Assembly: GCA_000403335.2 (NCBI GenBank)
Contig: KE159617.1
Span: 1-64,000, forward strand
Source of the DNA: Lachnospiraceae bacterium MD335
GTDB lineage: Bacteria; Bacillota; Clostridia; Lachnospirales; Lachnospiraceae
Length of the DNA: 64,000 bases
Direction: 5' to 3'
Below, piece after piece: positions 3,655 through 17,290 of this stretch (the first letter of the stretch is position 1; the number at the start of each line of letters is the position of its first letter). The notes under the pieces are model-generated. The model was given only the letters and a program-made list of their open reading frames with translations, was not told the origin of the DNA and did not search any database. The position numbers and the translations under genes are program-made.

Positions 3655-3682
3655 TTGCAATGTGTTAATAAATTAACATAAT
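3655..3682 (+). promoter_or_regulatory. Possible promoter ahead of structured element
   Basis: TTGCAA (3655-3660), 16 nt, CATAAT (3677-3682). The spacer holds the inverted repeat TGTTAAT-AA-ATTAACA (3663-3678). Transcription would start close to 3690, about 10 nt before the structured element at 3701. Confidence 0.35.
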
Positions 3683-3700
3683 GCGGAAGTGGGATAAAGA

Positions 3701-3837
3701 GTAACGGTTCAGCCTGGGACTTTGCATTTACTGCAAAGTCCGTGAAACAGTGTAGTGATGGAGATGTATCAAGTCACTGCGAAGCAGTTTTGCATGACTT
3801 GATGCTTGTAACAGGAAGCCGAAAGCTGAACTGTTAC
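3701..3837 (+). ncRNA. Candidate structured RNA element, full copy 1
   Basis: A 137-nt stretch that folds into an outer 13-bp stem (3701-3713 with 3825-3837, one G-U) enclosing two hairpins. The first pairs 3717-3726 with 3732-3741 (10 bp). The second pairs 3768-3776 with 3795-3803 and contains a small CTGC-GAA-GCAG hairpin followed by an unpaired TTTTGCA. A rival local hairpin pairs TTGTAACAG (3806-3814) with CTGTTACAA (3831-3839). A second full copy at 13622-13754 keeps the structure with compensating base changes. It lies between the DUF402 gene and the atp promoter and encodes no plausible protein. Function unknown: it could be a small RNA or a mobile palindromic repeat. Confidence 0.6.
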
Positions 3838-3867
3838 AATAAATAGTACAAAAAAACTGACATTTAC

Positions 3868-3896
3868 TGGACAGAAATGGCAATTTTTTGTATAAT
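3868..3896 (+). promoter_or_regulatory. Sigma-A promoter of the ATP synthase operon
   Basis: TGGACA (3868-3873), 17-nt spacer, TATAAT (3891-3896), about 60 bp before the first gene of the operon. Confidence 0.75.
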
Positions 3897-13310: not shown

Positions 13311-13580
13311 GCACCGTGCAGCCGGGGCGGTAGCGGTGCCCTGTACCATCAATCCGCTATAGTTGGGGTGTTGGGCGGCATGAGGGTCTGCGTTGATGCA
13401 GCTGCCCTTTATAAGCGGCGTTGAAGTTTGGGTCTTACGCAATATGTGCCATCGAACCGTGTCAGGATAGGAATATAGCAGCACTAAGGTGGATTTCGTA
13501 TGTGCCGTGAGGGTGCCTGGCGGAGCAGGCTGTAAAGGTAACGTACATGGGCATAGGATTCGAAGCCGTCCGCACGGTAT
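13311..13580 (+). ncRNA. ffs: Signal recognition particle RNA, large Gram-positive type
   Basis: The domain IV signature is clear: GAACCGTGTCAGG, a stem capped by the GGAA tetraloop, then AGCAGCACTAAGG and TATGTGCCGTGAGGGTGCCTGG (about 13454-13522). The upstream half, with GGTAGCGGTGCCCTGTACC, fits the Alu domain of the long Bacillus/Clostridium form. Ends are set by pairing of ACCGTGC (about 13313) with GCACGGT (13572-13578), giving about 268 nt. The RNA scaffolds Ffh for membrane targeting of ribosomes. It has its own strong promoter. Confidence 0.93.
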
Positions 13581-13621: not shown

Positions 13622-13754
13622 GTAACTGTTGGGTCAGGTTTGGGCACTTGCTGCACAAACCGTGGGAAAACGTGAATTGCGTTAGGCATCAAGCCACCAT
13701 GAAGTGGTTTTGCATGGCTTGATGCATGTAACTATGAAGGAACTGAATAGTTAC
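13622..13754 (+). ncRNA. Candidate structured RNA element, full copy 2
   Basis: This 133-nt copy shares the fold of 3701-3837: outer stem GTAACTGTT/AATAGTTAC (13622-13630 with 13746-13754), hairpin 13637-13646 with 13652-13661, and an 11-bp stem 13686-13696 with 13715-13725 holding a GAA-capped mini-hairpin and the identical unpaired TTTTGCA. The rival local hairpin GTAACTAT/ATAGTTAC (13728-13735 with 13747-13754) is followed by GGATTTTTT, so here it could act as a terminator. It sits about 40 nt after the SRP RNA and 28 nt before the DUF3048 gene. Confidence 0.6.
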
Positions 13755-15080: not shown

Positions 15081-15101
15081 TAGAAAGGAATGGAGTTTAG
15101 C

Positions 15102-17234
15102 ATGACAAGAGAGGAAGCAAGAAAAAAAGCAGAAGATTTGGTGCGTCAAATGACGCTTGAAGAGGCGGCGTCACAGCTTAGATATGATGCGCCCGCGATA
15201 GAGCGGCTGGGTATTCCTGAATATAACTGGTGGAATGAGGCGCTTCACGGTGTGGCGCGTGCGGGCGTGGCGACGTGCTTTCCACAGGCAATCGGATTGG
15301 GCGCTACATTTGACACGGAGCTTATGCTTACAATTGCAAAAGCAATTGCACTTGAAACACGGGCAAAATATAATACTTATTCTGCGCATAATGACAGAAC
15401 GCAGTATAAGGGAGTGACCATGTGGACGCCCAACATCAATATCTTTCGGGACCCGCGGTGGGGAAGAGGGCAGGAGACTTTTGGCGAAGACCCGCAGCTT
15501 ACGGCGCAGATGGGCTGTGCGATGATTAACGGTTTACAGGAAAAACGAGACGGATTTATGACTGCCGCGGCATGTGCAAAGCATTTTGCGGTGCATTCGG
15601 GACCGGAAGCTTTACGACATGAGTTTGATGCCAAAGTATCGAAAAAGGATTTATGGGAAACCTATCTTCCGGCTTTTGAGGCATGTGTAAAGGATGCGGG
15701 TGTTGAAGCGGTTATGGGTGCTTACAACCGCACAAACGGCGAGCCTTGCTGTGCGCATGAGTATCTGATGAATGATGTGCTCAGGGGCGAATGGAAGTTC
15801 GAGGGTCATTATGTCTCAGACTGTTGGGCAATTCGGGATTTTCATGAGAAGCATCATATTACGGAAGCACCGGAAGATTCGGTGTCGCTTGCGCTTGGAG
15901 CGGGCTGTGATTTGAATTGCGGATGTACGTATCAGAGAATTTTGAATGCATATGAGCAGGGTAAGATAACGAGAGAAGAAATTGACCAGAGTGCGGTGCG
16001 CCTTTTTACGACAAGGTATTTGCTTGGACTGTTTGACAAGTCGGCGCTCGACGAAATTCCATACAGCGTGGTGGGATGCAGGGAACATTTGGAGCTTGCG
16101 TATCGGGCGGCAATTGAGAGCTGTGTGCTTTTGAAAAACGACGGAACGCTTCCGCTGGATAAAAAGAACTATCATACAATCGCTGTGATTGGTCCGAATG
16201 CGGACAGTACGGCGGCGCTTGTGGGAAATTACAATGGAACGCCGCCAAGAGCAATTACGCTTTTGCAGGGAATCAGCGATTTTTGTTTTGAAAATCATAT
16301 TGCGGTTCATTATGCGCAGGGTTGCCATTTATTTGACAATACGCCGCCAAAGAAACCGCATTTGGGGTATTTTGTAACGGAGGGCGTGATTGCCGCAGAG
16401 CATTCGGACCTCGCAATACTCTGTGTAGGCTTAGATGCTGGATTGGAGGGTGAGCAGGGCGACAGGGGAAATCAGTTTCCAAGCGGCGACAAATCGGATT
16501 TGCTTTTGCCTGAGACACAGCGCACATTGATAGAAGCGGTGGCAAAGACGGGGACTCCGTTTATACTTGTGAATGCATCGGGAAGTCCGATTGATTTGTC
16601 GGCTTATGAAGAGCAGGCAAAGGCGATTTTGCAGGTATGGTATCCGGGCGGTGAGGGAGGACGTGCAGTGGCGGACATTCTTTTTGGAAACGCAGCGCCG
16701 CAGGGAAAACTTCCGGTTACGTTTTATTATAATGATAACAGGCTTCCGGAGATTACGGATTATGCAATGAAGGACCGGACGTACCGTTATATGACACAAA
16801 AGCCGTGGAAACCGTTTGGTTTTGGACTTACATATGGAGAGGCGCAGATTGACAGCGTACAGGTTGATGTCGTGGAGGGCGGTAAAGAAAGCTGCTTTGT
16901 CGAAAAAAAGGAACGAGGATGGTGCGTCACGATAGCGGACAAGGTGTTTTATCAAAGAGCGGCTGAGAATGGCGTTGAGATTTCGGTTTCGTGTTCGGCA
17001 AAATATGACACATGTGTCAGTGAAGTAATACAGCTTTATGTTCATGTAAAAGGGACACAGAACGAGGTGCCGAATGCAAAGCTTGCGGCATTTGGACGTG
17101 TGCAGATTGCACCGGATGAGAAAACCGTGCGGCGGTTTTTTATTCCCGCAAAAGCTTTTACGACGGTTAATCATAACGGCGAAAGAAATGCTGACGGAAA
17201 CGGAGCAGATATTTATATCGGATTTTCCGCATGA
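15102..17234 (+). CDS. Glycoside hydrolase family 3 (beta-glucosidase/beta-xylosidase type)
   Basis: A 710-residue enzyme without a signal peptide, so it likely acts on imported oligosaccharides in the cytoplasm. The N-terminal TIM barrel has YNWWNEALHGVAR and FPQAIGLGATFD, characteristic of the xylosidase-like GH3 branch. The nucleophile is the Asp of GHYVSDCWAI (about residue 240). The second domain carries the likely acid/base in LEGEQGDRG, and a C-terminal fibronectin-like domain follows. Substrate (xylose- or glucose-linked) cannot be fixed. ATG 15102 is preferred over 15090 because GGAG lies 6-8 nt before it. The stop codon falls inside a partial copy of the structured repeat. Confidence 0.88.
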   Translation: MTREEARKKAEDLVRQMTLEEAASQLRYDAPAIERLGIPEYNWWNEALHGVARAGVATCFPQAIGLGATFDTELMLTIAKAIALETRAKYNTYSAHNDRTQYKGVTMWTPNINIFRDPRWGRGQETFGEDPQLTAQMGCAMINGLQEKRDGFMTAAACAKHFAVHSGPEALRHEFDAKVSKKDLWETYLPAFEACVKDAGVEAVMGAYNRTNGEPCCAHEYLMNDVLRGEWKFEGHYVSDCWAIRDFHEKHHITEAPEDSVSLALGAGCDLNCGCTYQRILNAYEQGKITREEIDQSAVRLFTTRYLLGLFDKSALDEIPYSVVGCREHLELAYRAAIESCVLLKNDGTLPLDKKNYHTIAVIGPNADSTAALVGNYNGTPPRAITLLQGISDFCFENHIAVHYAQGCHLFDNTPPKKPHLGYFVTEGVIAAEHSDLAILCVGLDAGLEGEQGDRGNQFPSGDKSDLLLPETQRTLIEAVAKTGTPFILVNASGSPIDLSAYEEQAKAILQVWYPGGEGGRAVADILFGNAAPQGKLPVTFYYNDNRLPEITDYAMKDRTYRYMTQKPWKPFGFGLTYGEAQIDSVQVDVVEGGKESCFVEKKERGWCVTIADKVFYQRAAENGVEISVSCSAKYDTCVSEVIQLYVHVKGTQNEVPNAKLAAFGRVQIAPDEKTVRRFFIPAKAFTTVNHNGERNADGNGADIYIGFSA

Positions 17235-17290
17235 CTTGATTTGTGTAAGAGGAAGCCTGAGGCTGAACTGTTATGTATTTCATATGTTTC
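17229..17290 (+). repeat. Structured element, partial copy 3 (3' half)
   Basis: GCATGACTTGAT, then TGTAAGAGGAAGCC-TGA-GGCTGAACTGTTA, matches the 3' half of the element at 3701-3837; AGCC/GGCT replaces AGC/GCT with pairing kept. The GH3 stop codon (17232-17234) is formed by its first bases. The flank ATGTATTTCATA also recurs at copy 4. Confidence 0.55.

Follow-up and report, generated by a model that had tools for sequence, protein, structure and literature searches.

REP palindromes are imperfect hairpins that occur in many copies and come with TnpA-REP transposases. For ERIC, an orientation-dependent effect on transcripts has been described and for NEMIS RNA cleavage by RNase III has been proposed, as passages of two reports state (PMC2229807, PMC3049150). 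BOX, RUP and SPRITE, according to sections of the second of these, are over-represented between convergent genes, with 60.8-63.3% of them on the leading strand, which agrees with the coding bias (PMC3049150). The insertion sequence ISDge4 of the ISBst12 group has the ends GTGACTACTCAGCA/GTAACTGCTCAGCA and an 8-bp repeat in the portion of its description available to us (PMC12898284). The window (the whole stretch of 64,000 nucleotides analysed here) carries copies of a folded element that a first-pass annotation had suspected to be a regulatory RNA upstream of the atp genes. We find that this element is almost certainly a MITE of the IS66 (ISBst12-like) kind, and what had looked like a switch becomes a mobile family for which the transposase partner is clear.

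Results

The two copies that the first-pass annotation had described as sharing one architecture are both confirmed (Table 1). They can be aligned over their full length, and a covariance model of 24 copies, the window copy 3701-3837 among them, matches in the window exactly 3701-3837 and 13622-13754 and, weakly, a 3' remnant, in which the ORF at 15090-17234 has its stop codon. Copy 1 is flanked by a minus-strand DUF402 gene (PF04167) on one side and on the other by the atp operon, whose genes downstream of the copy we take to be atp genes from their sequences. Just upstream of copy 2, the large bacterial SRP RNA (Rfam RF01854) occupies window positions 13314-13577. No Rfam family reaches its gathering score at copy 1 or copy 2 and a permissive Rfam search of copy 1 yields nothing near that score. 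No literature on it was found in one open-access library, which is weak evidence of absence.

Table 1. Copies of the element in the window and their parts
Feature	Position	Strand	Basis
MITE copy 1, complete, 137 bp	3701..3837	+	cmsearch E 4e-36; TIR and TSD; empty site in relatives
Left TSD GATAAAGA, decayed, 6/8 match	3693..3700	.	flank comparison and empty sites of relatives
Right TSD AATAAATA	3838..3845	.	flank comparison and empty sites
Left TIR GTAACGGTTCAGCC	3701..3714	+	same kind of end bounds other genome copies
Right TIR AGCTGAACTGTTAC	3824..3837	+	same kind of end in other copies
Hairpin 1, 10-bp stem, loop TTTAC	3717..3741	+	fold; 240/240 cells paired in 24 copies
Hairpin 2, 11-bp outer stem, 4-bp inner stem (family fold)	3766..3805	+	fold, covariation and core alignment
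Hairpin 2, GAA triloop	3781-3783	+	family fold
Hairpin 2, bulge TTTTGCA	3788-3794	+	family fold
3' fold-back, inner end repeat GTAACAG facing right TIR	3808..3837	+	local fold of the first-pass annotation
MITE copy 2, other end subtype (right end CTGAATAGTTAC), 133 bp, TSD decayed	13622..13754	+	model E 5e-20
Third copy, 3' remnant	about 17225/17229..17274 (model match 17160-17274, E 0.05)	+	DNA and model search

Both copies fold better than 200 of 200 dinucleotide shuffles each, as RNA (z -6.0 for copy 1 and -3.4 for copy 2) and as DNA (z -7.1 and -5.6). The unpaired parts that had been called fixed, namely the GAA loop, the bulge and the GTAAC boundary, do recur, and the RNA fold of copy 2 contains the GAA triloop; the lowest-energy fold of copy 1, as RNA and as DNA, however lacks the GAA hairpin and the bulge, which are replaced by a TGCGAA/TTTGCA pairing. 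Covariation within the family supports the GAA form over this alternative inner pairing: 3 of the 4 pairs in its inner stem show two-sided change among the 24 copies. The core is common to copies with several different ends. It opens with hairpin 1, which CA...TG closes; about 20-28 linker bases then lead to hairpin 2, which has a 3' bulge and holds a small hairpin within it, and after that comes the inner end repeat, which can fold onto the right end. Of 178 distinct cores, 137 have GAA as the inner loop and 102 have the bulge TTTGCAT, in a register one base later than TTTTGCA. Subfamilies differ completely in their stems while keeping the layout, and inner stems look by eye as if they had been swapped between subfamilies as units. 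The same ends are also found on elements that lack the core (types C and D and forms of 31-60 bp). Type C is a second MITE subfamily, with the same ends, another interior and other palindromes (loci L079, L080, L082, L083, L126, L135, L141 and L146).

The claim that paired bases change together holds up. Among the 24 copies, two-sided change is found in 8 of 39 pairs, which 0 of 500 shuffles match, and slid registers all stay well below it; counting 'further pair types' gives no significant result for the same copies (99/500 shuffles). Hairpin 1 is fully paired here (100%, 240/240 cells) and the TIR to 94.6%, the TIR helix having zero two-sided changes. In the larger tree sample of 176 cores, chosen partly by pairing and left after 2 of the 178 had been dropped for linkers >32, 97.8% of the cells are paired versus 71% after shuffling, and two-sided changes occur in 18 of 18 scored pairs versus an average of 14.8 after shuffling. 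Among the compensations on short branches, many are double transversions (76, versus 45 double transitions), which suggests arm-templated DNA correction or an exchange of modules, besides selection. A pseudoknot between the hairpin-1 loop and the linker looks good by eye in some copies but is not significant, with 73 of 1000 linker shuffles as good.

The mobility of the element is evident from its boundaries. Type-A copies start with GTAACAGTTCAG and finish with CTGAACTGTTAC. The GTDB matches listed, together with one IMG/VR contig, gave 115 3' ends, 96 of which remained after 19 too near a sequence end were removed. For 73 of these 96 distinct 3' ends a recognisable 5' end lies at 90-450 bp, and in 60 of the 73 elements the 8-bp flanks match in 7 or 8 positions, perfectly so in 39; the flanks GATAAAGA/AATAAATA of the window copy match in 6 of 8. 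Upstream of atp, three close relatives have an empty site that holds one target copy (AATAAATA in G006 and G011, CATAAATA in G031). TIRs, a TSD of fixed 8 bp, the empty site and many copies without a transposase of their own thus mark the element as a MITE. The target duplication and the number of copies go beyond what the first-pass annotation was able to see. Tandem copies exactly 8 bp apart, which look as if one target duplication were common to both, were seen at C1:890586-891009 and C13:420325-420615 of the own genome (G000) and at L204:6967-7246. At L087 (G000:C14:383175-383499) a type-A copy is inserted at the right end of a type-D element, with CTGTGTAC duplicated as judged by eye.

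The same anatomy accounts for the two mutually exclusive folds described earlier for the 3' arm. Its far pairing with 3701-3713 comprises 13 bp, as had been stated, and is the pairing of the two transposon ends (TIRs). The local pairing TTGTAACAG/CTGTTACAA, given as 9 bp, also exists and is that of the inner GTAACAG repeat of the end with the right end, but 3838-3839 are target DNA, which leaves 7 bp within the element. Since TIRs and an inner end repeat are enough to produce both folds, a switch is not needed. In 6 of the 96 3' ends the inner repeat also forms the left edge of a 31-bp element (GTAACAGNGAAGCCGAAGGCTGAACTGTTAC, with variants) that is flanked by a perfect 8-bp duplication (L159, L167, L203, L205, L207 and L208; L113 matches in 7 of 8). 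These forms may be transposed mini-elements, the smallest mobile form, or deletions between two GTAACAG repeats.

A search of 35 genus genomes for IS66 transposases and then for ends identified autonomous partners in relatives. They are divergent single-ORF elements of IS66 type (ISBst12-like), 2.2-2.3 kb long, with 8-bp TSDs and the ends GTTACTGTTCA, GTTACTTTTCA or GTTACTATTCA. L221/L296 measures 2251 bp (ends GTTACTGTTCA, TSD GCTGCTTT), L233/L298 2323 bp (ends GTTACTTTTCACGGGTAG, 18/18 end bases, TSD TATCAATA) and L307 2304 bp (20/20 end bases, TSD AAGAATAG); L226, of which ends and protein were read, is a further candidate partner of this kind. The partner proteins match PF03050 above its cut-off, and NF033517 is the best match on L221, L233 and L226 at 151-168 bits, below its cut-off of 180. 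By eye, the ends of the partner elements have the TIR in common with the MITE and lack the core. The left end of one own-genome copy (L027) is of the L233 type. Relatives of the L221-type transposase (E ≤1e-20) occur in 7 of 38 genus genomes and at this threshold none was detected in the own genome, so the window copies may be orphans. None of the autonomous elements in this search carried the exact type-A end GTAACAGTTCAGCC. Two candidates were rejected as partners or elements: the own-genome IS66 locus L073 (end-like GTAAGCG) has no end in common, and a 3.4-kb end pair on G032:C73 consists of two separate ends around host genes. Fragments of IS66 transposases lie on contigs C12, C13, C15, C16, C18 and C2 of G000, several of them near contig ends, which suggests that recent IS66 copies broke the assembly of the own genome.

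The own genome contains dozens of copies: a DNA search with the window copy gave 51 matches at E ≤10, a count that includes short and reversed matches to the ends, and the covariance model 69 rows at E ≤0.1, some of which are minus-strand shadows. Further copies with compensating changes, for which the first-pass annotation had suggested a covariance-model search, are thus many in this genome, and they extend to 31 of 35 genomes of the genus (own included), with 860 matches summed by hand across the 35 and up to 94 candidates scored per genome. Order-wide, under stricter filters and with 16 candidates per genome in the rows shown, 2 of 196 genomes match, one being the own genome. The exact 14-base end GTAACAGTTCAGCC was present in 31 of 60 relatives, all 31 within the genus, and the reversed-pattern control gave none. 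The last 23 bases of the element occur in at least 113 stretches of GTDB contigs. Among the matches listed, titles are mostly Lachnospiraceae, with Hominisplanchenecus murintestinalis, Mediterraneibacter agrestimuris, a Eubacterium sp. and records titled bacterium or Clostridia also present. Two IMG/VR contigs carry type-A copies, L101 (2671-2808), which is flanked by perfect CACTGTAG repeats, and L031 (168-304), and the element may therefore travel between hosts; phage and plasmid collections gave no match.

Copies with the core are oriented preferentially in the sense of their host genes. In 85 contexts (loci of ≥2 kb with ORFs ≤700 bp away on both sides, 8 copies inside ORFs being set aside), 47 copies were tandem sense, 13 tandem antisense, 20 divergent and 5 convergent; of the 60 core-bearing copies in tandem contexts, 47 are thus in sense (p 1e-5). 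ORFs were called mechanically at ≥90 aa, or at ≥80 aa for the own-genome count and the comparisons with core-less copies. Of 34 copies read in the own genome, which overlap with the 85, 25 lie in tandem contexts and 22 of these are sense (p 0.00016). When copies with the same 3' end were classed by one fixed rule, those with hairpin 1 stood at 36:8 sense to antisense and those without at 10:10 (Fisher p 0.015), a comparison that left out 19 ends with too little upstream sequence and one with N and that placed the core-bearing L149, L189, L193 and L214, whose hairpin 1 is lengthened, in the core-less class. Earlier, looser sequence classes gave 38:10 for core-bearing and 9:8 for core-less copies (p 0.06), and the contrast between the two groups depends on how copies are classed. 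Replication strand was judged unlikely as the cause of the bias, as neighbouring copies on C13 flip with the genes: orientation changes there within 12 kb (875122 minus, 883230 plus, 887368 minus). On C1, all rows to E 1e-3 are plus and two weaker minus rows are shadows of plus copies.

An asymmetry between the strands is also visible in the stems. Parsimony on the tree of 176 cores counts 56 changes to G.T versus 28 to A.C (p 0.003), the events not being fully independent, and rates in 40 unpaired columns predict 0.95:1, against which the G.T excess has p 0.001. Bootstrapping over elements places the G.T fraction of cells at 0.59-0.75 (95%; 78 vs 38 cells), and distinct stem variants stand at 33:18 in DNA-found and 37:18 in model-found copies. 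The TIRs, as a control, give 18:17, where the search expression constrained the first five positions, and positions 6-14 give 14:13. The 3' fold-back (G.T 11, A.C 1) was set aside for this purpose, as the expression allowed change at the 3' terminal base and not at the 5' one; it gives 5:1 without the terminal position, and the 17:45 under a relaxed expression was judged misregistered and not used. The whole core is predicted to be more stable on the sense strand in 121 versus 52 cases; taken by itself, hairpin 1 is predicted to be more stable on the minus strand in 156 and on the sense strand in 19 of the 175 cases without a tie. Unpaired sense bases are poor in C (974 C and 1887 G of 6971); judging from these base counts, an antisense transcript would be C-rich and unpaired and could load Rho. 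G.T beats A.C in single-stranded DNA too, so the strand signal is no proof of RNA. It is compatible with the structured RNA that the first-pass annotation had suspected, while the switch proposed along with it finds no support.

Discussion

Two questions have to be kept apart, how the element moves and what its core does. We propose that the MITE is moved by its TIRs through a single-ORF IS66-type (ISBst12-like) transposase, which autonomous elements with similar ends would supply in trans and which would make the 8-bp duplication, as anatomy and comparison indicate. The core is seen as a sense-strand element because of the G.T excess in the stems, the sense bias between tandem genes and the lack of bias in copies without hairpin 1, and it is probably constrained on that strand, most simply as RNA. 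Conserved as it is in its several hairpins, it would act in cis within transcripts of the genes that flank the insertion. There, the sense RNA might fold up compactly, so that the host transcript stays usable, or, alternatively, be processed as has been proposed for ERIC and NEMIS RNA; sense copies would be tolerated and kept, and antisense copies lost. That the core serves as a compact or processed spacer in host transcripts, by analogy with ERIC and NEMIS, is a tentative suggestion. The overall reading, an IS66-mobilised MITE whose core acts on the sense strand in cis, appears likely to us, and the copy at 3701 is an example of such an insertion rather than a regulator dedicated to atp.

The most serious competitor is an ordinary MITE interior whose hairpins are kept, without an RNA function, by DNA-level processes such as template switching between palindrome arms or cruciform and single-strand folding in replication or transposition, and whose orientation bias is due to the purging of harmful antisense copies. 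It gains from the frequent double transversions on short branches, from the inner stems that by eye appear to have been swapped as units between subfamilies, from the strong folding as DNA and from the C(GAA)G loop, which is famous as a stable hairpin in DNA too. Arm-templated correction, however, predicts G.T to equal A.C, and although the TIRs conform (18:17), the stems do not (56:28). Purging by orientation, moreover, presupposes some strand-specific effect, and where hairpin 1 is missing the copies are balanced at 10:10. We regard such an interior as unlikely. Far less probable still is that transposition itself requires the folded sense strand, as RNA or single-stranded DNA that, for instance, the transposase binds. 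The persistence of the core across several end types and the complete pairing of hairpin 1 in the 24 copies, compared with 94.6% for the TIR, would fit such a role, yet core-less elements (the 60-bp form, type C and the 31-bp forms) also have perfect 8-bp duplications, and the ends of autonomous insertion sequences lack the core by eye.

An independent small RNA, or a cis-regulatory switch dedicated to the downstream gene, was the reading from which the analysis started. Covariation is what either would be expected to display, and a weak promoter-like match lies at 3655-3682. A simple sigma-70 consensus scan, though, yields 3 such matches in the region, this one included, where shuffles give 1.9 +/- 1.6; this is no more than chance, a terminator-like site was not found there, and the idea of a small RNA with its own weak promoter was not borne out. 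The element sits before the atp promoter, as had been noted, with the promoter-like match of atp downstream of it at 3868-3896. The copies are moreover scattered and flanked by target duplications. As for a link to atp, the position is not conserved before atp in relatives: besides the empty sites in G006, G031 and G011, the model finds the element at only two of 30 atp loci read (own included; for L460 just 261 bases upstream were available), in the own genome and in G030, where it belongs to another subtype and occupies another insertion point. A dedicated switch is already contradicted by these observations, and the two possibilities taken together have very little left in their favour.

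If the constraint on the sense strand acts at the level of RNA, it would show that the fold of an RNA can be maintained strand-specifically in a bacterial MITE even while the sequence changes deeply. We may even be dealing with a new class, in which one RNA architecture is kept under sense-strand selection while its sequence and transposon ends are exchanged, carried on MITEs of several IS66 transposases and acting in cis in hundreds of Lachnospiraceae host transcripts; we hold this to be a substantial possibility, somewhat short of probable. The family provides a natural experiment, in which a single folded module has been inserted hundreds of times, in both sense and antisense positions. It is also a warning that covariation alone can arise from transposon palindromes, and it offers an internal control in the comparison of TIRs with stems and of G.T with A.C.

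Like REP palindromes, as these are generally known, the present element consists of imperfect hairpins in many copies, but its 8-bp TSDs and TIRs point to a DDE transposase. With the ISBst12 group it has in common ends of the form GTAAC-G-TCAGC and the 8-bp direct repeat, as far as the available part of the ISDge4 report describes them (PMC12898284), and the single-ORF transposase of the partner elements matches PF03050; unlike members of this group, the MITE is 137 bp long, has no transposase and carries a hairpin core that is absent from the partner ends. BOX, RUP and SPRITE of pneumococcus are likewise interspersed folded repeats, BOX being modular in the sections that treat it (PMC3049150), whereas the present element is rare between convergent genes (5/85) and sense-biased (47/60 in tandem contexts). 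ERIC and the Correia/NEMIS MITEs resemble it as small (about 100-200 bp) non-autonomous repeats that are folded when transcribed, to judge from passages of the respective reports (PMC2229807, PMC3049150). Processing of the RNA of the present element is putative. It differs from ERIC and Correia/NEMIS in its hosts and ends, and in that its stems change almost completely while the architecture stays.
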